Origin: an uncultured bacterium
GTDB lineage: Bacteria; Actinomycetota; Actinomycetes; S36-B12; CAIKAW01
Length of the DNA stretch: 40,306 bases
Direction: 5' to 3'
NCBI GenBank assembly: GCA_903825575.1
Contig: CAIKAW010000103.1
Coordinates: 1 to 40,306 of the forward strand
The translations under genes and the position numbers were made by a program. The notes beneath the pieces were generated by a model. The model did not search any database, was not told where the DNA came from, and saw nothing but the letters and a program-made list of their open reading frames with translations. Below, piece after piece: positions 3,400 through 28,544 of the stretch. Numbering within the stretch: the first letter of the stretch is position 1; the number at the start of each line of letters is the position of its first letter.

Positions 3400-3428
3400 G
3401 TGACGGGTGTGGCTGGAGGGGCTAGGGT
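3400..3428 (+). promoter_or_regulatory. ilvBNC promoter (leaderless leader ORF)
   Basis: GTGACG at 3400-3405 (four of six match the -35 consensus) and TAGGGT at 3423-3428 are separated by 17 bases. The -10 ends six bases before the ATG of the leader ORF at 3435, so the transcript should begin at that ATG or one base before it. This is the best formed -35/-10 pair among the leaderless promoters in the window. Confidence 0.65.
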
Positions 3429-3434
3429 CTGGTC

Positions 3435-3479
3435 ATGCTTTCGACACTCGTAGTAGTACCGATGGGGCCCGTCGCCTGA
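3435..3479 (+). CDS. ilvL: ilvB leader peptide (14 aa, Val-Val-Val)
   Basis: ATG to TGA encodes MLSTLVVVPMGPVA. Three consecutive GTA valine codons lie at 3450-3458 and leucines at positions 2 and 5, but there is no isoleucine. It sits between the promoter and a rho-independent terminator ahead of ilvB, the classic layout of ribosome-mediated attenuation. Leader peptides with terminators upstream of ilvB are known in Corynebacterium, Mycobacterium and Streptomyces from comparative genomics. There is no Shine-Dalgarno sequence, and the -10 box is six bases upstream, so it is probably read from a leaderless mRNA. The ilvL symbol is used by analogy. Confidence 0.8.
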   Translation: MLSTLVVVPMGPVA

Positions 3480-3500
3480 CGTCCACCGGTGATGCGCCCC
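3464..3500 (+). promoter_or_regulatory. Predicted antiterminator hairpin of the ilvB attenuator
   Basis: GGGGC (3464-3468) pairs with GCCCC (3496-3500). After one C/C mismatch, C3470 pairs with G3494 and GTCGCC (3471-3476) pairs with GGTGAT (3488-3493) using two G-U pairs. The loop is 3477-3487. It uses the 5' arm of the terminator at 3497-3500, so the two folds exclude each other. A ribosome stalled at the first Val codon would leave 3464 onward free; a ribosome at the leader stop would cover this region and let the terminator form. Confidence 0.6.
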
Positions 3501-3529
3501 CCTGCCTGCAAGTGGCCGGGGGGTTTTTT
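3497..3529 (+). terminator. Rho-independent terminator of the ilvB attenuator
   Basis: Six C (3497-3502) pair with six G (3518-3523). After a T/C mismatch, GCC (3504-3506) pairs with GGC (3514-3516) around a seven-base loop. Six T follow at 3524-3529. It lies 17 bases after the leader-peptide stop and 87 bases before ilvB. Confidence 0.85.
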
Positions 3530-3616
3530 ATTGCTAGGTAGAACTACTCGTAGGTAAGGCAAGGACACTGCAAGGCCCGCACCGCCGGGGCAACCCGGCC
3601 AAAGCAAGGACATGTG

Positions 3617-5359
3617 ATGAGCGAAAAGATCACCGGAGCACAGAGCCTGGTTCGGTCACTCGAGATGGCCGGCGTCGACACGGTGTTCGGGATTCCCGGT
3701 GGAGCGATCCTTCCCCTCTACGACCCGCTAATGGACTCCACGAAGCTGCGGCACATCCTGGTGCGCCACGAGCAGGGCGCTGGGCACGCCGCCGAGGGAT
3801 ATGCCTTGGCCAGTGGACGGGTCGGCGTTTGTATGGCGACAAGCGGTCCGGGTGCAACCAACCTCGTGACACCAATCGCTGACGCTCACATGGACTCGGT
3901 ACCTATCGTGGCTGTCACTGGACAGGTCCCCAGCGCTTCCATCGGGACCGACGCCTTCCAAGAAGCCGATATCCGTGGCATCACAATGCCAATCACCAAG
4001 CACAACTACTTGGTGACCGATCCTGACCAAATCCCGCGGGCAATTGCAGAGGCCTTCCATATCGCATCGACCGGTCGCCCCGGTCCCGTGCTTGTGGACG
4101 TTTCTAAGGATGCACTCCAGGGGATGACGACTTTTGAGTGGCCCGATCACATTGATCTTCCCGGTTACCGTCCGGTTACCCGACCACACGCCAAGCAGAT
4201 ACGCGAAGCCGCACGCCTGATCGTTGAGTCCCGCCGTCCAGTGCTCTACGTCGGCGGTGGCGTGATTCGCGCACGCGCTTCGAAGCAGTTGCGAGAACTG
4301 GCCGAACTGACCGGCATCCCAGTGGTAACCACGTTGATGGCGCGCGGGGCGTTCCCCGATGGGCACCCGCTTCACCTCGGGATGCCAGGCATGCATGGCA
4401 CCGTCGCGGCGGTTGGCGCGCTCCAGAAAGCCGATCTACTGATCACGCTGGGGGCCCGCTTCGACGACCGTGTGACTGGCAAGTTGTCTTCGTTCGCGCC
4501 CGACGCAAAGGTGATCCACGCAGACATTGACCCAGCCGAGATCTCCAAGAACCGCGTGGCCGACCTACCGATCGTCGGCGATGCGGGCGAGGTGATTTCC
4601 GACCTGATTGTCGCAATCAAAGCCGACTACGCGGCCGGTCGAGTTGGCGACTACGAAGGTTGGCGTCAGACGGTTACTGGTTGGCGCACGACCTACCCGT
4701 TGGGCTGGGAAGGCAACGCCGACGGCATGCTCGCGCCGCAATCAGTGATTCAGCGCCTCGGCAAGATTGCTGGCCCAGACGCGATCTACGTCGCCGGCGT
4801 TGGGCAGCACCAAATGTGGGCTGCCCAGTTCATTGATTACCAGAATCCGGGCACCTGGCTCAATTCCGGCGGACTAGGAACTATGGGTTTCGCAATCCCA
4901 GCGGCCATGGGCGCAAAGGTTGGGCGTCCGGATGCCACAGTCTGGGCGATCGATGGCGATGGCTGTTTCCAGATGACCAATCAAGAACTCGTCACCTGTG
5001 CCATCAACGACATTCCCATCAAGGTGGCGCTGATCAACAACTCATCCCTTGGCATGGTGCGCCAGTGGCAGACGCTGTTCTACAACGAGCGCTACTCGAA
5101 CACTGATCTGCATTCGCATCGGATTCCGGATTTCGTGATGCTGGCCGAGGCCTATGGCTGTGCCGGACTGCGATGCGAATCTCCTGAAGACGTTGACGCA
5201 ACAATCGAGAAGGCAATGTCAATCAATGACCGACCGGTGGTGGTGGACTTCGTCGTCCATCGGGATGCGATGGTTTGGCCGATGGTCGCCGCAGGCACAA
5301 GCAACGACGACATTTTGGTGGCGCGCGAAATGGCCCCTGATTGGGAGAGTGAGTACTGA
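3617..5359 (+). CDS. ilvB: Acetolactate synthase large subunit IlvB
   Basis: IlvB is the ThDP-dependent catalytic subunit of acetohydroxyacid synthase, making 2-acetolactate from two pyruvates or 2-aceto-2-hydroxybutyrate from pyruvate and 2-oxobutyrate. It has 580 residues from the ATG at 3617; AAGGA at 3606-3610 fits this ATG better than the GTG just before it. The ThDP-activating Glu is in [14 protein letters not shown] (E52). The ThDP/Mg motif begins GDG at residues 447-449 and runs to [12 protein letters not shown]. It heads the ilvB-ilvN-ilvC cluster behind the leader-peptide attenuator. ilvN, the regulatory subunit, follows after 49 bases. Confidence 0.97.
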
Positions 5360-5408
5360 TGTTCACACCCAGCGGCCGGATGCAACTTCCATTGGTTAGG
5401 AGTCAGTC

Positions 5409-7050
<1,642 letters not shown>

Positions 7051-7188
7051 TTTTGGCGCGGCGGGTTCGGCGGTTAGCGGCGCGGCGGTGTGGTGCTGTG
7101 GTGAAGGCCAGGCCGGTGGCGCGCCGTTGCGCGTCGGTCGCCCGCTAGAGTTGCTGATTCCGCAACAGTCCTAGCAAAGGTGTCTGCC

Positions 7189-8775
7189 GTGACTCCCGTC
7201 GTCCTCATCTCCGAGGAGCTTTCCCCTGCCACCGTGGATGCGCTTGGTCCTGACGTAGAGGTGCGCACTTGCGACGGGACGAACCGCGCCGAATTGCTCG
7301 CCGCGGTCGTCGGCATCGATGCGCTGCTAGTCCGGTCGGCAACGCAGGTGGACGCTGAGGTCTTTGCGGCCGCCCGCGGAATGCGCGTCGTCGCCCGGGC
7401 CGGGGTCGGACTGGACAACGTCGATGTCAAGGCGGCTACCCAAGCTGGCGTGATGGTCGTCAATGCGCCGACCTCGAACATCGTCAGCGCCGCTGAGTTG
7501 GCCGTTGGATTGCTGCTCGCGAGTGCCAGAAACATAGTTCCTGCGAACTTGGCGCTGCGTAACGGAAAGTGGGAGCGCTCAAAGTTCACCGGCGCCGAAA
7601 TCACCGACAAAGTAGTAGGCATTGTCGGCCTTGGCAGAATCGGCCTCTTGGTCGCACAAAGGCTGGCGGGGTTTGGCGTCGACCTAATCGCTTACGACCC
7701 TTACATCCAGCCGTCACGCGCCGCGCAGATCGGTGTGCGAATGGTGGAGCTGGATGACCTGCTGCGCGAGAGCGACTTCATCACAGTGCATTTGCCGAAG
7801 ACGCCCGAAACGGTGGGCCTGATCGGGGCGGATGCGCTGAAGCTTGTTAAGCCAACCGTGCGGATCATCAACGCAGCGCGGGGCGGCATCGTCGACGAGG
7901 CCGCCTTGTACGACGCGCTCGTGTCTGGCCGGGTGGCCGGTGCTGGGCTCGACGTCTACGCGACAGAGCCGTGCACGGATTCGCCGCTGTTTGGGTTAGG
8001 GAACGTCGTGGCAACTCCGCATTTGGGTGCGTCCACGGACGAGGCTCAGGAAAAGGCCGGCGTTGCCGTGGCTCGTTCGGTACGACTAGCACTTGCGGGG
8101 GAGCCGGTGCCAGATGCCGTCAACGTCCAAGGCGGAGAACTTTCCGATGAGGTGCGCCCGGCAATCGGGCTGGCCGAGCGACTTGGGCACCTAGGTGCGG
8201 TCCTTGCCCAGGCGCCGCTGGCTTCGGTAGAAGTAGATGTGCGCGGCGAGTTGGCGTTGCATGACGTCAAACTTGTCGAACTTGCCACCCTCAAGGGTGT
8301 GTTCGGTGCTCTCGTCCACGAACCAGTTTCTTATGTGAACGCACCGGTGCTTGCAGCCGATCGCGGCGTTACATCGCACCTGACGACCAATCGCGACAGC
8401 CCCGACTTCCGCAGTTTGGTCGGCGTTGTGCTCGCTTGCACTGACGGCAGCCGAGTGTCAGTGGCGGGCACGGTTACTGGCCCGCGCGGGATTGAAAAAC
8501 TTGTTGCGATCGATGGTTTTGACATTGACGTGCCGTTCAGCCGGCACTTGGCATTCTTTACTTACCACGATCGCGTTGGGGTCGTCGGTATCGTCGGCCG
8601 ATTACTTGGCGAGGCTGGCGTCAATATTGGCGGCATGCAGGTCAGCCGTCGGGCCGAAGGGGGATCGGCATTGATCGCACTGACCGTCGACTCTGAAATC
8701 CCGGCAGCAGTCATGACCGCTATCAGCGCCCAAATCGGCGCCACCCAAGGTCAAGCAGTAACCCTCGACCTCTGA
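7189..8775 (+). CDS. serA: D-3-phosphoglycerate dehydrogenase SerA
   Basis: SerA catalyses the first step of serine synthesis, 3-phosphoglycerate to 3-phosphohydroxypyruvate. It has 528 residues, the long type with a catalytic part (about 1-310), an intervening regulatory domain, and a C-terminal ACT domain (GVVGIVGRLLGEAGVNIGGMQVSR). Signatures are GLGRIGLLVAQRL (Rossmann), INAARGGIVDEAALYDAL (Arg) and VVATPHLGASTDEAQEKAG (His). I start it at GTG 7189 because AAAGG ends eight bases upstream; the in-frame GTG at 7180 overlaps that site. A -10-like TAGAGT lies at 7146-7151. The 138-base gap after ilvC is very GC-rich and shows no clear terminator. Confidence 0.93.
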   Translation: MTPVVLISEELSPATVDALGPDVEVRTCDGTNRAELLAAVVGIDALLVRSATQVDAEVFAAARGMRVVARAGVGLDNVDVKAATQAGVMVVNAPTSNIVSAAELAVGLLLASARNIVPANLALRNGKWERSKFTGAEITDKVVGIVGLGRIGLLVAQRLAGFGVDLIAYDPYIQPSRAAQIGVRMVELDDLLRESDFITVHLPKTPETVGLIGADALKLVKPTVRIINAARGGIVDEAALYDALVSGRVAGAGLDVYATEPCTDSPLFGLGNVVATPHLGASTDEAQEKAGVAVARSVRLALAGEPVPDAVNVQGGELSDEVRPAIGLAERLGHLGAVLAQAPLASVEVDVRGELALHDVKLVELATLKGVFGALVHEPVSYVNAPVLAADRGVTSHLTTNRDSPDFRSLVGVVLACTDGSRVSVAGTVTGPRGIEKLVAIDGFDIDVPFSRHLAFFTYHDRVGVVGIVGRLLGEAGVNIGGMQVSRRAEGGSALIALTVDSEIPAAVMTAISAQIGATQGQAVTLDL

Positions 8776-8780
8776 CCGAA

Positions 8781-8986
8781 GAAAGTGCCGTGGGTGCGCA
8801 TAGGCAGCACAAACGGTGCATTGCGATTGTGCGCAGCGTTTCGCAATATGCCCTCTAACGGCCGAGACCTTTTGTTGCGCAGGCTTGTTTGAAGTCCTTC
8901 CCGCCGTAGGCCACTTAGGACCTGACACATAACGCACATTGATGGTGGTGCCTTTTGTGTCACCTATGCGTACGCACGGCACTTTC
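8781..8986. repeat. 206-base element with imperfect terminal inverted repeats
   Basis: The left end at 8781-8815 and the right end at 8952-8986 are inverted copies. The outer 12 bases (GAAAGTGCCGTG) match perfectly, then two bases, then CGCATAGG, then CACAAA and GG, separated by a few mismatches. About 135 bases lie between the arms, including a smaller pair TTGCGA/TCGCAA. It fills the gap between the convergent serA and leuA genes. I see no ORF and no target duplication. It could be a MITE-like element, a structured RNA, or an unusual convergent terminator. Confidence 0.55.
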
Positions 8987-8993
8987 CTCAAGC

Positions 8994-10921
<1,928 letters not shown>

Positions 10922-10928
10922 GTGCAAA

Positions 10929-10934
10929 AGGGTA
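10929..10934 (-). promoter_or_regulatory. -10 box of the leuA leader transcript
   Basis: TACCCT on the minus strand is seven bases before the leader-peptide ATG (10921). This places the transcript start at or next to that ATG. No clear -35 is seen at the expected distance. Confidence 0.5.
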
Positions 10935-10968
10935 GCAGGGTGAATCGGTAGCGACCTGAGTCGGTAGC
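10931..10968 (+). repeat. Three GGTAGC words at 16-base spacing between leuA and leuB
   Basis: GGTAGC occurs at 10931-10936, 10947-10952 and 10963-10968, with exactly 16 bases between starts. The outer copies overlap the -10 boxes of the leuA leader (minus) and leuB (plus). This could be an operator array shared by the divergent promoters, or chance reuse of a -10-like word. Confidence 0.45.
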
Positions 10969-10970
10969 CT
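10965..10970 (+). promoter_or_regulatory. -10 box of a probable leaderless leuB promoter
   Basis: TAGCCT lies exactly six bases before the leuB ATG. The bases between are a pyrimidine run with no Shine-Dalgarno sequence. No clear -35. Confidence 0.55.
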
Positions 10971-10976
10971 TCCCCC

Positions 10977-12023
10977 ATGTCTAGCACCCTGCGGCTCGCT
11001 GTTATCCCCGGTGACGGGATTGGTACTGAGGTCACCACGGAGGCCGTCAAGGTTCTCGATGCGGTCGCTTCCCAGCACGGCGTTGCGGTGGTGCCAAGCG
11101 AGTACGACCTCGGGGCGCGACGCTGGTTGGCCAGTGGCGAGACCCTGCCGGACTCGGTTTTGGCCGAGCTTCGCGGGCATGACGCGATCCTTCTGGGCGC
11201 AGTAGGAGATCCCAGTGTGCCCCCCGGTGTCCTAGAGCGAGGGCTGTTGTTGCGCTTGCGTTTCGAACTGGATCATCACGTCAATCTGCGTCCGGTGAAG
11301 TTGTACCCAGGGGTTGCCAGCCCGCTGTCGGGCAAGGGACCGGCCCAGATCGACATGGTCGTCTGTCGCGAAGGTACGGAGGGCCCTTACGCCGGTTCCG
11401 GAGGATTCCTACGCAAGGGGACACCGCACGAGGTTGCAATTGAAGACAGCCTCAACACGGCTTACGGAGTCGAACGGATTGTTCGCGACGCATTTGGTCG
11501 TGCGATGCGTCGTCGCAAGCACCTGACACTCGTGCACAAGACCAACGTGCTGGTCCATGCCGGCGATCTGTGGCAGCGCACCTTCACACGCGTGGCCGCC
11601 GAGTTCCCGGAGGTCGCTACAGACTACTGCCACGTTGATGCAGCGGCGATGTTCTTCCTTACGGCACCTGAGCGTTTCGATGTCGTCGTGACCGACAACT
11701 TGTTCGGCGACATCATCACCGACATCGGGGCGGCAATCGCCGGCGGAATTGGGCTGGCTGCTTCCGGGAACCTTGATGTGAGTCGAGTCAACCCAAGCAT
11801 GTTTGAGCCAGTCCACGGGTCTGCGCCGGACATCGCGGGCCAGGGGATAGCTGACCCCACCGCTGCGATCTTGTCCGTTGCAATGTTGCTCGACCATGTT
11901 GGGCACACCGCGGCTGCGGCCCAGGTGGAGTCCGCAGTGGCGGCAGATCTGCTTAGCCGCACTGGTTCCCGGAGTACTTCCGCGGTCGGCGACGCGATCG
12001 CGGCGCTTGCCGTCGGGTCGTAG
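10977..12023 (+). CDS. leuB: 3-Isopropylmalate dehydrogenase LeuB
   Basis: LeuB oxidatively decarboxylates 3-isopropylmalate to 2-oxoisocaproate. The same activity on 3-methylmalate would make 2-oxobutyrate in the citramalate route started by CimA. It has 348 residues. Signatures are [17 protein letters not shown] at the N-terminus, the substrate-binding arginines in [23 protein letters not shown], and the metal-binding [20 protein letters not shown]. The ATG at 10977 is preceded by TAGCCT at six bases, indicating a leaderless transcript. It is divergent from leuA. Its stop TAG abuts the -10 box of ilvE. Confidence 0.96.
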
Positions 12024-12029
12024 TAGCGT
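12024..12029 (+). promoter_or_regulatory. -10 box of a probable leaderless ilvE promoter
   Basis: TAGCGT directly follows the leuB stop codon and ends six bases before the ilvE ATG. There is no Shine-Dalgarno sequence in the 12-base gap, which fits leaderless initiation from this promoter. Confidence 0.5.
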
Positions 12030-12035
12030 CACGCC

Positions 12036-13139
12036 ATGGCCAACGTCGATCTAGAACTCATCAGCTTGCGTCCGGGTCCCGGTCTGCCCGCTGAAAAGCG
12101 CGAGGAAATCTTGCGCGACCCTGGATTCGGTCGAGTGTTTACGGACCACATGGTCTCGATTCGCTGGTCGGTCGACGGGGGATGGCACGATGCCGAACTG
12201 ATTCCGTATGGACCTTTGACGCTGGACCCTGCCACGAACTTCATTCACTACGGCCAGTCGATCTTTGAAGGGCTCAAGGCTTACCGGCATCCGGACGGCG
12301 GCATCTACACGTTCCGACCGAAAGCCAATGCGGCCCGGTTCCAACGTTCGGCGGCTCGCTTAGCGATGCCGGAGTTGCCAATTGAGTTGTTCATTGCCGC
12401 TGTCGAAGCGTTGGTGCAACAGGACGCTGTGTGGGTGCCGGATGATCCCGAGAAGTCGCTCTACTTGCGGCCGTTCATGTTTTCCACCGAGGTGGGCTTG
12501 GGTGTGCGGCCCGGAAACGCCTATCAGTTCTTGTTGATCGCTTCTCCTTCTGGGGCTTACTTCCCGCGCGGAGTGAAGCCGGTGTCGGTCTGGTTGTCTG
12601 AGGAATATGTGCGAGCTGCCCCCGGTGGTACTGGGGAGGCCAAATGCGCTGGCAACTACGCAGCCTCGCTGATCGCTCAGGCCGAGGCGACCGCGAATGG
12701 TTGCGATCAGGTGGTTTGGCTTGACGCCATCGAGCGACGTTGGGTCGAGGAAATGGGGGGCATGAACCTGTACTTCGTGCTCGGAAGTGGCAAGAGCGCC
12801 CGCCTGCTTACTCCTTCGCTGACGGGCACGCTGTTGCCCGGAATCACGCGCGATTCCTTACTTACTCTCGGCGGCGATATCGGTCTGGTGACAGAAGAGG
12901 GCCGGATTGATGTCCAGGCCTGGGAAGCGGGCTGTGCTGACGGTTCAATCACCGAAGTCTTCGCTTGCGGCACTGCCGCGGTTATTACCCCGGTCGGCAG
13001 CGTTAAGTCGCGCTCGGGCGGCTGGTCGGTGGGGGCTGGTGAGACCGGACCGGTTACGGCAGCTCTTCGACACGCGTTGCTTGAGGTGCAGACTGGCCGG
13101 TCCGAGGACGTCCATGGCTGGCTGCATCGCCTCGTGTGA
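12036..13139 (+). CDS. ilvE: Branched-chain amino acid aminotransferase IlvE
   Basis: IlvE is a PLP enzyme (fold type IV) that aminates the 2-oxo acids of Val, Leu and Ile with glutamate. It has 367 residues, typical of the larger actinobacterial/eukaryotic group. PLP Lys is K203 in [12 protein letters not shown]. Other signatures are INFGQ-like [16 protein letters not shown] and the [11 protein letters not shown] and [16 protein letters not shown] segments near the phosphate site. It is 12 bases after leuB and may be expressed both with leuB and from its own leaderless promoter. The cimA leader region follows directly. Confidence 0.96.
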
Positions 13140-13150
13140 CCTGCGTATGG

Positions 13151-13156
13151 CACAAT
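13151..13156 (+). promoter_or_regulatory. Possible -10 box of the cimA leader
   Basis: CACAAT lies exactly six bases before the leader ORF ATG, the same spacing as the TANNNT boxes elsewhere in the window. The first base does not match and no -35 is clear. Read-through from ilvE is also possible. Confidence 0.35.
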
Positions 13157-13162
13157 CGGGCC

Positions 13163-13189
13163 ATGACAGTTCGGCAGATCATTTTCTAG
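13163..13189 (+). CDS. cimA leader peptide (8 aa, Ile-Ile)
   Basis: ATG to TAG encodes MTVRQIIF, with two consecutive isoleucine codons (ATC ATT) at 13178-13183. It lies just after ilvE and before two hairpins and a terminator that precede cimA, the isoleucine-specific gene. No Shine-Dalgarno sequence is present. The match between the codon content and the end product of the downstream enzyme is the main evidence. The ORF is very short, so chance is possible. Confidence 0.6.
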   Translation: MTVRQIIF

Positions 13190-13213
13190 CGCGTCGACCA
13201 TTAGTCGACGCGC
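13189..13213 (+). promoter_or_regulatory. Perfect 10-base hairpin in the cimA leader
   Basis: GCGCGTCGAC (13189-13198) pairs with GTCGACGCGC (13204-13213) around a five-base loop. It begins in the last base of the leader-peptide stop codon, so a ribosome on the Ile codons or at the stop would block its 5' arm. Its freed 3' arm could pair imperfectly with 13222-13230, inside the following terminator (seven of nine pairs). Confidence 0.65.
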
Positions 13214-13247
13214 CGCCCCTACGCATCCGCGAGGGGCGTTTTCATTT
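13214..13247 (+). terminator. Rho-independent terminator before cimA (attenuator)
   Basis: CGCCCCT (13214-13220) pairs with AGGGGCG (13232-13238), extended inward by CGC/GCG around a four-base loop with one bulge. T-rich TTTTCATTT follows. Only 17 bases, holding the ribosome site, separate it from the cimA ATG. No promoter fits there, so cimA transcription must pass through this terminator. Confidence 0.75.
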
Positions 13248-13264: not shown

Positions 13265-14854
13265 ATGCGACCGCAGGATGCGTTCCACGTCTACGACACC
13301 ACCTTGCGCGACGGCGCACAGCAAGAGGGCCTGAACCTCTCGGTCGCCGACAAGTTAACAATTGCGCGCCACTTGGATGCCCTCGGCGTGGGCTTCATCG
13401 AAGGTGGTTGGCCCGGCGCCAACCCGAAGGACACTGAGTTCTTCCGTCGCGCCCAGACCGAGCTGGTGTTGAAGAGCGCAACGTTGGCTGCTTTCGGGGC
13501 TACTCGCCGCCCTGGTGTTGCTGCAGCCGATGATCCGCTGATCATCGCCTTGCGCGACAGCGGTGCATCGGTGGTGACGCTGGTTGCCAAAGCGCATGAC
13601 CGTCATGTGGAGTTGGCGCTGCGAACCGACCTTGCCGAAAACCTCGCCATGGTCCGAGACACCATCAGGTTCTTGCGCGACGGCGGGCAGCGAGTGTTCC
13701 TTGATGCTGAGCATTTCTTTGACGGCTACCGCGCCAATCCGGCGTATGCCTTGGAAGTTATTCGCGTGGCGGCCGAAGCCGGTGCTGATGTGGTCGCCCT
13801 TTGCGACACCAACGGGGGGATGCTCCCGAACGAGTTAGCGGACGTCGTCGGTGCTGTGTTCGGTGCGACCGGCGCCCGACTTGGGATTCACTGTCACGAC
13901 GACACTGCTTGTGCGGTAGCCAACACTCTTGCGGCTGTGGACGCTGGGGTTACGCACGTTCAGGGCACCGCCAATGGGTACGGCGAGCGCAGCGGCAACG
14001 CAAATCTGTTCAGTGTGGTAGCCAATCTGCAACTCAAACAAGGTCGTAACGTGGTGCCGGCCGAGTCACTGCGCGACATGACGCGCATCGCTCATGCGAT
14101 CAGTGAAACGACTAACGTCGCGCCCGATCAACATCAGCCGTACGTTGGTCTTTCGGCTTTCGCTCACAAGGCGGGGCTTCACGCCAGCGCAGTTAAGGTT
14201 GATCCAAACCTGTATCAGCACATTGATCCGGCAACAGTCGGTAACGACATGCGAATGCTGGTCTCCGACATGGCCGGCCGGGCCTCGATTGAGATGAAGG
14301 GCCGCGAACTCGGCTACGACTTGTCCGAAGATCGCGACGCCATCACGAGGGTGATCGACCGAGTGAAGTCGCTTGAGTCCGGCGGATACACGTTCGAGGC
14401 TGCTGACGCATCCTTTGAGCTGCTGTTACGTGATGAGGTTCTTGGACATCGCGAGCGGTACTTCACCGTCGAGTCCTGGCGAACAATCGTCGAACAGCGA
14501 CCGGACGGTTCGGTAGTCAGCGAGGCAACAGTCAAGATCCACGTCGCGGGCCAACGCTTCGTTTCGACGGGGGAGGGCAACGGTCCGGTTAATGCACTCG
14601 ACAACGCCCTGCGCAGTGCGATCACGACTGTGTACCCGGAACTTGCTGCGCTGGAACTGGTCGACTACAAGGTTCGGATCCTTGACGGCGGCGGCGGTAC
14701 GGCGTCGGTCACTCGGGTCTTGATCGAGACCACCGATGGGACCACTGAGTGGGACACGATCGGGGTACACGAGAACGTCATAGCTGCGTCGTGGTCAGCG
14801 TTGGAGGATGCGATTTCCTACGCCTTGATGCGTTCTGGACGGTCGCCGATCTGA
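13265..14854 (+). CDS. cimA: Citramalate synthase CimA
   Basis: CimA condenses pyruvate and acetyl-CoA to (R)-citramalate, starting a threonine-independent route to isoleucine. It has 529 residues with an HMGL-like barrel: YDTTLRDGAQQEGLNLSVADK at the N-terminus and metal-binding IHCHDDTACAVAN. The segment ANGYGERSGNANLFSV is also typical. The C-terminal part is a LeuA-type allosteric domain (STGEGNGPVNALDNALR). It belongs to the branch sharing N-terminal features with homocitrate/2-isopropylmalate synthases, but the length and FIEGGWPGANPKD motif point to CimA. ATG 13265 has GGAG upstream. The Ile-Ile leader and terminator upstream support a role in isoleucine synthesis. The substrate assignment is from family features only. 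Confidence 0.9.
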   Translation: MRPQDAFHVYDTTLRDGAQQEGLNLSVADKLTIARHLDALGVGFIEGGWPGANPKDTEFFRRAQTELVLKSATLAAFGATRRPGVAAADDPLIIALRDSGASVVTLVAKAHDRHVELALRTDLAENLAMVRDTIRFLRDGGQRVFLDAEHFFDGYRANPAYALEVIRVAAEAGADVVALCDTNGGMLPNELADVVGAVFGATGARLGIHCHDDTACAVANTLAAVDAGVTHVQGTANGYGERSGNANLFSVVANLQLKQGRNVVPAESLRDMTRIAHAISETTNVAPDQHQPYVGLSAFAHKAGLHASAVKVDPNLYQHIDPATVGNDMRMLVSDMAGRASIEMKGRELGYDLSEDRDAITRVIDRVKSLESGGYTFEAADASFELLLRDEVLGHRERYFTVESWRTIVEQRPDGSVVSEATVKIHVAGQRFVSTGEGNGPVNALDNALRSAITTVYPELAALELVDYKVRILDGGGGTASVTRVLIETTDGTTEWDTIGVHENVIAASWSALEDAISYALMRSGRSPI

Positions 14855-17603: not shown

Positions 17604-17675
17604 TGGGGTATGGGGTAATTGGCAGCCCAACTGGTTCTGGTCCAGTTAGTCTAGGTTCGAGTCCTGGTACCCCAG
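17604..17675 (+). tRNA. tRNA-Gln(CUG)
   Basis: A full cloverleaf can be drawn. Acceptor TGGGGTA (17604-17610) pairs with TACCCCA (17668-17674). The anticodon stem ACTGG/CCAGT encloses loop 17635-17641 with anticodon CTG at 17637-17639. The T arm CTAGG-TTCGAGT-CCTGG is at 17651-17667. The discriminator is G17675 and CCA is not encoded. The weak U1-A72 pair at the acceptor end is typical of tRNA-Gln and favours GatCAB recognition. Confidence 0.95.
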
Positions 17676-17725: not shown

Positions 17726-17798
17726 GGCCCCGTTGTGTAGCGGCCTAGCACGCTGCCCTCTCAAGGCGGTAGCGCGGGTTCGAATCCCGTCGGGGCTA
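17726..17798 (+). tRNA. tRNA-Glu(CUC)
   Basis: Acceptor GGCCCCG (17726-17732) pairs with CGGGGCT (17791-17797) with one G-U pair. The anticodon stem CTGCC/GGCGG encloses loop 17758-17764 with anticodon CTC at 17760-17762. The T loop GTTCGAATC is standard. The discriminator is A17798 and CCA is not encoded. It lies 50 bases after tRNA-Gln in the same direction and is followed at once by a strong terminator. Confidence 0.95.
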
Positions 17799-27575: not shown

Positions 27576-28544
27576 ATGATGGGTCAGAACGTGGGCGACC
27601 TCGGTGAGTTCGGGCTACTGGCTCGCATCGCAGCTCGACTAAACGAAACCGATCAGCCCGACGATGGCCGAGTCGTCGTCGGGCCGGGTGACGACGCCGC
27701 TGTAGTTACCGTGCCCGATGGACGCGTGGTAGTTACCACAGACATGCTCGTCGACGGCCGTCACTTCCGTCGCGATTGGTCCTCCGCCTACGACATAGGA
27801 CGCCGGGCGGCGGCCGCGAATCTGGCTGATGTGGTAGCGATGGGTGCGGACCCAGTGGCCCTTGTGGTCGGTCTGGCCCTGCCATCGGACACCGAAGTTG
27901 CCTGGGTGACAGGGCTAACTGACGGGCTCCGAGATGAGTGTGCCGAACTCGGAGCCACAGTGGTTGGTGGCGACATCGTCCGCGGCGACCTAATCGTCAT
28001 TTCTGGTACTGCGTTAGGAGATCTCGGCGGTCGCAAACCAATCTTGCGCAGCGGCGCTCATCCGGGTGACACGGTGGCCGTAGCCGGCCGGCTGGGCTGG
28101 GCGGCCGCTGGACTGACCGTTTTGCGCCGGGGCTTTCGTTCTCCGCGGGTGCTGGCCGACGCACATCGTCGACCGGATCCGCCGTATGCGGCGGCATTGG
28201 CCGCAGCGCGGGGGCCGGTGACCGCTATGGCTGACATCAGTGACGGCCTGGTAGCTGATGCAGGGCATTTGGCCGCGGCATCCGGGGTATCAATCGAGTT
28301 AGTGAAGAGCCAACTGCCAGTGGCCAAGGAACTCTTGGAAGCTGCCGCGGCGTTTAACGTCGACCCGCTGAACTGGGTGCTAACCGGCGGCGACGACCAC
28401 GGTTTCGTGGCGACGTTTACCAAGCGACGCAAACTTCCGGCCGGATTCATTGCCATTGGCGTGGTAGTCGAAGGCGCTGGACAGGTGCTCGTCGACGGCG
28501 AGCCCTACGCCAATCAGGGTGGTCATGACCACTTCCGCGACTGA
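27576..28544 (+). CDS. thiL: Thiamine-monophosphate kinase ThiL
   Basis: ThiL phosphorylates thiamine monophosphate to thiamine diphosphate, the cofactor used by IlvB among others. It has 322 residues and the PurM-like fold. Metal and nucleotide motifs are GPGDDAAVV, TTDMLVDGRHF, AAANLADVVAMGA and GGDIVRGD; the substrate region is MADISDGLVADAGHLA. GAGGAG precedes two adjacent ATG codons (27576 and 27579); I take the first. Its stop is 19 bases from the convergent rpmB. Confidence 0.95.
   Translation: MMGQNVGDLGEFGLLARIAARLNETDQPDDGRVVVGPGDDAAVVTVPDGRVVVTTDMLVDGRHFRRDWSSAYDIGRRAAAANLADVVAMGADPVALVVGLALPSDTEVAWVTGLTDGLRDECAELGATVVGGDIVRGDLIVISGTALGDLGGRKPILRSGAHPGDTVAVAGRLGWAAAGLTVLRRGFRSPRVLADAHRRPDPPYAAALAAARGPVTAMADISDGLVADAGHLAAASGVSIELVKSQLPVAKELLEAAAAFNVDPLNWVLTGGDDHGFVATFTKRRKLPAGFIAIGVVVEGAGQVLVDGEPYANQGGHDHFRD

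Follow-up and report, generated by a model that had tools for sequence, protein, structure and literature searches.

The branched-chain amino acid locus and its leaders

The window analysed here, the whole stretch of 40,306 nucleotides (nt) from an uncultured actinobacterium (G000:C103), carries a block of branched-chain amino acid genes in the order ilvD-ilvB-ilvN-ilvC-serA, leuA and leuB-ilvE-cimA. Our subject is the short region in front of cimA, the gene for citramalate synthase: judging from comparison with relatives, 13163-13242 is likely to act on cimA as a leaderless, isoleucine (Ile)-responsive leader-peptide attenuator that has the layout of the leaders preceding ilvB. A sequence-only reading of this DNA had proposed that short open reading frames (ORFs) with runs of valine (Val), leucine (Leu) and Ile codons lie before ilvB, leuA and cimA, respectively, and all three were present exactly as described when the sequence was read directly and the coordinates were checked (Table 1). 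The lack of a Shine-Dalgarno sequence at the three leaders, which that reading had also noted, was borne out. The start codons sit directly behind -10-like hexamers, at a distance of 6-7 nt, which would explain the missing Shine-Dalgarno sequences by leaderless translation and suggests that the window leaders are leaderless mRNAs. The names of ilvD, ilvN, ilvC and serA were given by eye from the sequence, with no model scan.

Table 1. Genes and leader elements of the window.
Feature	Position	Strand	Remarks
cimA leader ORF, MTVRQIIF then stop	13163 (ATG)-13189 (TAG)	+	Ile codons ATC ATT at 13178-13183
Extended -10-like element TGGCACAAT (TGG-CACAAT), putative cimA leader promoter	13148-13156	+	6-nt spacer to ATG
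Hairpin P1, cimA leader	13189-13213	+	abuts P2
Intrinsic terminator hairpin P2, cimA leader	13214-13238	+
T-tract of the cimA-leader terminator	13239-13242	+
cimA, citramalate synthase	13265-14854	+	TIGR00977, 644.9 bits, cut-off 450
ilvB leader ORF, MLSTLVVVPMGPVA then stop	3435 (ATG)-3479 (TGA)	+	GTA GTA GTA at 3450-3458
-10-like TAGGGT, ilvB leader	3423-3428	+	6-nt spacer to ATG
P1, ilvB leader	3467-3497	+	arms 3467-3475 / 3489-3497, with mismatch; model alignment
Terminator P2 (3498-3523) and T-run, ilvB leader	3498-3529	+	model alignment and sequence reading
ilvB, acetolactate synthase large subunit	3614-5359	+	NF005860, 1112.4 bits, cut-off 881
leuA leader ORF, leucine run, LEU-type	10921-10877	-
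-10-like TACCCT, leuA leader	10929-10934	-	7-nt spacer to ATG
leuA, 2-isopropylmalate synthase	8994-10811	-	NF002991/TIGR00970
leuB (10977-12023) and ilvE (12036-13139)	10977-13139	+	order leuB-ilvE-leader-cimA

Conservation of the cimA leader and identity of its codons

The conservation of the cimA leader was analysed in 128 of 139 cimA upstream regions fetched from the order and the class; the other 11, without a start motif, were left out. A short ORF with Ile-Ile near its stop was found in 72 of the 128 regions, compared with 1.4 in first-order Markov shuffles. Val runs (6 against 4.0 expected) and Leu runs (7 against 7.9) were near expectation in the same regions, whereas arginine (Arg) runs (41 against 26) and threonine runs (15 against 6.8) were mildly above it, far less so than Ile-Ile; the Arg excess probably arises because the GCGCGC arm gets translated in some leaders. 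Ile-Ile together with a terminator was present in 82 regions under a rule that allowed ATT and ATC and excluded ATA, and the Ile pairs before cimA were written as ATT-ATT (27), ATC-ATT (26), ATT-ATC (23) and ATC-ATC (3). In addition, 94 of the 128 regions carry the pair of hairpins P1 and P2, including 12 without an Ile-Ile run, for which GCGC near the terminator was required for inclusion; most of the inspected cimA leaders of this last kind have an altered run, IVI for example, or just one Ile.

The leaderless-type start is also common to the relatives. A hexamer of the form [TC]ANNNT, mostly in the extended form TGNCANNNT, ends exactly 6 nt 5' of a start in 47 of the 82 cimA leaders and lies 5-8 nt 5' of it in 65, whereas a control with displaced starts gave, for the 5-8 nt range, a mean of 6.8 and a maximum of 13. 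An SD-like (Shine-Dalgarno-like) sequence was found in only four of the 82.

Among named loci, 36 matches were obtained from the 51 with a start motif, out of 56 of 80 loci examined, and one of the 36 (L216) is merely the end of ilvE. Carriers include Streptomyces, Nonomuraea, Planotetraspora, Streptomonospora, Kribbella, Pedococcus, Motilibacter, Cellulomonas, Cellulosimicrobium, Demequina, Micromonospora, Asanoa, Amycolatopsis, Kutzneria, Lentzea and Pseudonocardia. Under the rule used, no cimA leader was found in S. anulatus, S. himalayensis and a Kitasatospora. The leader is also absent from the small-genome relatives L113-L115, L118 and L119, in which cimA overlaps ilvE or lies close behind it and where genome reduction may have removed the leader.

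The RNA structure was analysed in an alignment of 56 Ile-Ile leaders that passed length, gap, spacing and identity filters. Both hairpins covary: double changes were found in 12 of 20 pairs and amount to 102 cells, where shuffles gave 25, and 91.5% of the cells are paired as compared with 43-56% when the partners were slid. The four basal pairs of P1, GCGC/GCGC (13189-13192 and 13210-13213 in the window), are invariant in all 56 leaders, while the upper part of P1 varies with compensation. As compensatory changes would have kept the basal pairs, their invariance suggests a role beyond pairing. The distance from the Ile run to P1 is 10-12 nt in 62 of the 82 cimA leaders, and P1 ends directly at P2, with a gap of 0 nt, in 77 of 94.

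The members of this alignment had been picked for Ile-Ile, and a covariance model built from the cimA leaders (R1, see below) was likewise trained on Ile-Ile leaders; codon conservation and specificity are therefore argued from the upstream counts above and from gene-anchored sets. A single rule was applied to the regions upstream of each gene, with the cimA set drawn from order and class and the leuA and ilvB sets from the order only, where 5 of 30 ilvB and 1 of 30 leuA regions had no start motif and were left out. The run codons follow the downstream gene, being Ile in 190 of 299 cases before cimA, Leu in 79 of 84 before leuA and Val in 51 of 83 before ilvB, and none of 5000 label permutations was as extreme as the observed match. 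Thus the proposal that leaders and codon runs are conserved in relatives and matched to the gene holds, whereas the proposed Val specificity of the ilvB leader does not: its core in the window is LVVV, and ilvB leaders across the class are mixed. Their composition was V58 L24 I10 in the order, L71 V67 I25 in the class with CimA and V34 L22 I11 in the class without CimA; since the last two look alike by eye, we do not claim a division of labour between ilvB and cimA leaders.

Furthermore, the regulatory codons of the leaders are, across relatives, minority synonyms with respect to the downstream genes. ATT accounts for 41 of 68 Ile codons in the leaders compared with 98 of 590 in the cimA genes (34 genomes), GTA for 31 of 48 compared with 72 of 1133 and CTT for 36 of 87 compared with 120 of 1143. 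By analogy with the theory of other attenuators, this could reflect selection for codons that are sensitive to starvation.

Related leaders before other genes

In the window's genome, two places matched model R1 at an E value of 10 or less: the leader of cimA, with 62.5 bits, and that of ilvB, with 18.8 bits (E 0.062). In the ilvB leader, P1 and P2 both lie within 3455-3531. A third window match, at 27641-27695, was taken as chance, as it lies inside an ORF that we take to be thiL-like. Across the class, R1 matched at E up to 0.01 in 163 of 197 genomes, and among the 150 class matches listed, coordinates place 109 ahead of cimA and 23 ahead of ilvB, showing that a common model also detects ilvB-type leaders. 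Inspection of 17 of the 18 remaining listed matches (all but that in G118) placed five before cimA, one before ilvB, eight before ilvA, two before an ACT-like ORF and one before leuA. All eight ilvA leaders lie in family f23. Model scans of three of these ilvA-like genes gave threonine ammonia-lyase as best match, at scores below the curated cut-offs, and the other five were assigned by eye or by similar upstream sequence alone. No Ile-Ile leader was found in the nine f23 cimA regions analysed, and in the four f23 genomes inspected at both loci (G134, G163, G092 and G172) ilvA has the leader and cimA does not.

A search of the phylum gave R1 matches at E up to 1e-4 in 70 of 296 genomes, 57 of them outside the class. 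From the 64 listed matches outside the class, 38 were inspected: 26 precede ilvB, four leuB, two cimA and two leuA, and four were left without gene assignment. The peptides, given here up to the stop codon, end in AIIIIR and SIIIIA before cimA, in NLLLT and ELLLR before the leuA genes that have the P1-P2 layout, in LVLIT, LVVVT and similar sequences before ilvB, and in LIVIIS, VIIIE, VVIIR and IVIIR before operons that start with leuB, three of which have a weak ilvE match after leuB.

These matches point to what looks like one re-codable attenuator layout for the leaders of cimA, ilvB, ilvA, leuB-first operons and some leuA genes. The sequence-only reading had assigned each of the three window leaders an RNA structure of its own; this is right for leuA, whose leader is separate and of the known LEU type, and not for ilvB and cimA, which share one layout.

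Two of the rarer placements among the class matches can be described in more detail. In the f16 genome G071 (L394:1213-2848, minus strand), a leader of P1-P2 layout encoding MTNLLLT precedes a LeuA that scores above the TIGR00973 cut-off; a search of this genome for CimA at E up to 1e-60 found none, and its leuA leader is unlike the LEU-type leader of the window. In family f25 (L384:2290-2628 and L385:2289-2651, both minus strand), the Ile leaders MFTPRIII and MFALVIIM stand before a stand-alone ORF of about 100 amino acids. The L384 ORF had no Pfam or NCBIfam match; its predicted structure, made from two sequences and with a predicted local distance difference test score (pLDDT) of 69, shows an ACT-like fold, and its best structural matches include ACT domains from GTP pyrophosphokinase and from IlvN. 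On this prediction, the f25 ORF is possibly an undescribed Ile-controlled ACT regulator.

Several attenuation systems are already known in Actinobacteria. The systems described by Seliverstov 2005 (PMC1262725) are ilvB leaders, LEU elements, attenuators of leuS and trp, leaders of cys genes and T-boxes of ileS; a cimA leader is not among them. In S. lividans, leader peptides are reported for leuS, leuA, trpE, trpS, alaS, ilvB, metN and thrS (PMC8079986), and a term search of the main text of that paper did not return cimA. Narunsky 2023 (PMC10272879) described the ilvB-II motif of Corynebacterium, and mixed codons in ilvB leaders are already on record from S. lividans (PMC8079986) and from C. 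glutamicum (PMC11857589). Searches of the open-access literature turned up no leader peptide for citramalate synthase in titles and abstract openings, an open-access literature search for actinobacterial threonine dehydratase leaders returned nothing, and Rfam gave no match at gathering score in the window other than two transfer RNAs (tRNAs) and none at E up to 1 in nine loci, so that by covariance-model match the leader belongs neither to the T-boxes nor to another Rfam family. This is in line with the sequence-only reading, to which no Ile leader before cimA was known. The cimA and ilvA forms are apparently undescribed, and the cimA Ile leader is very probably a real and widely conserved attenuator.

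The closest known systems are the actinobacterial ilvB attenuators (C. glutamicum ilvBNC/ilvB-II, M. tuberculosis ilvB1 and S. lividans IlvL), which likewise consist of an upstream ORF rich in branched-chain amino acid codons, a hairpin and a terminator, whereas the cimA form is coded for Ile and stands before another gene. According to the papers, the ilvB leaders of C. glutamicum and S. lividans are leaderless or nearly so, as the cimA form appears to be. The antiterminator and the terminator of C. glutamicum share GCC (PMC11857589), and no such sharing was seen in the cimA leaders. The S. lividans leader peptides in general are mostly leaderless (PMC8079986), and Streptomyces also carries the cimA leader. 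The window leuA leader resembles the LEU element of actinobacterial leuA (PMC1262725) in having a leucine run upstream of leuA. A LEU element is defined further by a pseudoknot whose base stem joins the Leu codons to the leuA Shine-Dalgarno sequence; as a candidate for such pairing, GGCUC in the window leader can by sequence reading face GAGCC at the leuA ribosome-binding site, and a LEU duplex search of 29 loci gave mixed partners. The LEU element differs from the P1-P2 layout in that no terminator is described for it, and R1 does not detect the window leuA leader.

How the leader could switch

In the E. coli leaders ilvL, ivbL, thrL and leuL, the ribosome waits on codons for the products of the pathway; these are Shine-Dalgarno-led leaders with classical alternative hairpins, and no attenuator of this type is known at citramalate synthase. 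For the cimA leader, we infer a response to starvation, its direction and an action of P1 on P2 from parts that were established by comparison between genomes. A transcript beginning at the leader AUG would be bound by a ribosome at once. When charged Ile-tRNA is scarce, this ribosome would wait at Ile-Ile, P1 would form and the polymerase would continue into cimA. When Ile is plentiful, the ribosome would reach the stop codon and hide the 5' arm of P1, so that P1 would not form and P2 would terminate transcription. P1 would in this way hinder closure of the adjoining terminator by direct abutment and not as a classical antiterminator. Abutment is the most likely mode of action, given that the search for alternative base pairing came up empty, and we rate the hindering role of P1, taken alone, slightly below an even chance.

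The geometry of the leaders was calculated for 79 unique cimA leaders with an assumed ribosome footprint from -15 to +12 nt of the A site. With a ribosome at the first Ile, 15% of the P1 5' arm is covered; the figure rises to 38% at the second Ile and to 92% once the stop codon is reached, and in 61 of the 79 leaders this last figure is 90% or more. Coverage from the stop codon is 0.90 where the stop lies at most three codons past the run (n=53) and 1.00 where it lies four to six codons past it (n=19). Similarly, in 83 ilvB leaders 3% of the arm is covered at the first regulatory codon, 41% at the last and 93% at the stop, and the last regulatory codon is most often 8 nt from P1 in ilvB leaders as in cimA leaders. 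Coverage is thus low at the regulatory codons and high at the stop, so P1 can form while the ribosome waits and is hidden once it reaches the stop; with this footprint, the cimA leader has the ilvB-type arrangement of upstream ORF, P1 and P2 in which the ribosome at the stop covers the P1 5' arm. By analogy, this geometry agrees with what was proposed for M. tuberculosis ilvB1, where the anti-terminator is prevented by a ribosome at the stop codon and where replacement of LVVI by AAAA abolished induction (PMC13236596). The published tests of ilvB leaders conflict, since codon substitution had no effect in S. coelicolor (quoted in PMC1262725), whereas in C. glutamicum it led to loss of the response (quoted in PMC11857589), in line with M. 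tuberculosis.

Several observations weigh against this explanation of the cimA leader. The probability of P2 is kept under a modelled stalled ribosome (0.91 to 0.94 in thermodynamic folding with occlusion), the arms and loop of P1 have no clear excess of complementarity to P2 in duplex tests, and P1 is unable to extend into P2 in 71 of 79 leaders, so that no boundary is shared. The abutment itself is only partly beyond chance: a zero gap is present in 85% of the unique Ile-Ile set and in 41% of shuffled interiors, which weakens it as a strong constraint, and where eight or more pairs and no more than 1 nt between the hairpins are required, the figures are 95% and 38%, respectively. The ilvB leader of the window is an outlier in which a ribosome at the stop codon covers 57% of the folded P1; with P1 as placed by R1, the ribosome at the stop covers 9 of 9 arm nt and that at the third Val 2 of 9. 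Its 18.8 bits are little above a chance-like 15.9 bits inside a coding gene in an unfiltered scan of the window, and because of this weak score the link between cimA and ilvB leaders rests on other genomes. In the ilvA leaders, seven out of eight contain just one Ile codon. Lastly, the cimA leader is absent from the small-genome relatives L004, L012, L014, L015 and L017, in which cimA overlaps or closely follows ilvE and from which it was possibly lost during genome reduction, and also from L024, L028, L104, L107 and L116, which do not have the overlap with ilvE as a reason.

The position of P1 could also be explained by an opposite role, in which P1 aids termination by stacking end-on on P2 or by pausing the polymerase, and an Ile-stalled ribosome covers the base of P1 and weakens termination. 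The frequent zero gap agrees with this, as does the invariant GCGC base, which a ribosome can reach from the second Ile codon, and masking the 5' arm of P1 slightly lowers the basal pairing of P2 (0.935 to 0.856). However, the ribosome at the stop codon covers most of the arm and would then relieve termination at plentiful Ile, unless its release is fast. Moreover, the hairpin that adjoins the ilvB terminator is an antiterminator in PMC11857589, and in PMC13236596 the ribosome at the stop codon prevents the anti-terminator. We consider a helper role of P1 unlikely.

The other main rival, which we consider likewise unlikely, is trp-type attenuation of the classical kind, whose antiterminator pairing would have escaped the folding because it is short, kinetic or at a shared boundary as in C. 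glutamicum. The cimA leader has two features of this type, an ORF with regulatory codons and an intrinsic terminator, but no mutually exclusive antiterminator pairing was found; because this pairing is missing, it is described here as acting like, and not as belonging to, the classical trp type. In the C. glutamicum ilvBNC model the adjacent antiterminator and terminator bases share GCC (PMC11857589), in PMC10272879 the lower right arm of P2 has a segment of the P1 loop as its partner, and the invariant GCGC together with frequent U-G pairs in P2 hints at a second partner. Against this, the P1 loop pairs with the 3' arm of P2 at -4.04 kcal/mol, compared with -3.80 for shuffled and -4.03 for swapped loops, no stable alternative was found, and the boundary is not shared in 71 of 79 leaders.

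A terminator alone would keep a hairpin and a T-run, but that P1 and P2 are just this and the Ile ORF a by-product is highly improbable given the in-frame Ile runs at narrow spacing to P1, the use of both Ile synonyms, the gene-matched codon swaps and the promoter-to-start spacing. Although T-boxes are predicted before actinobacterial ileS (PMC1262725), a metabolite- or tRNA-binding RNA in place of a translated leader is hardly credible, as Rfam gave no leader match at gathering score in the window and none at E up to 1 in nine loci, and the conserved parts are codons and two simple hairpins.

Returning to the abutting-hairpin attenuator, we tentatively propose that it forms one phylum-wide cassette, re-aimed by a change of two to four codons and switching without alternative pairing, which would be coded for Ile at cimA, ilvA and leuB-first operons, for Leu at some leuA genes and for a mixture at ilvB. 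If this is true, Ile synthesis in many Actinobacteria, Streptomyces included, would be under product-specific translational sensing at a committed step, and ilvA, leuB operons and some leuA genes would join one re-codable attenuator layout. The natural codon swaps on a single scaffold could serve as a test set for how leaderless attenuators work, and the layout would allow a clean test of switching by two abutting hairpins that have no alternative partners. In addition, the cimA leader could be a target for engineering precursor supply.

Elsewhere in the window, the Rfam scan found the two tRNA genes at 17604-17675 and 17726-17798, downstream of a gene that is presumably gltX-like.

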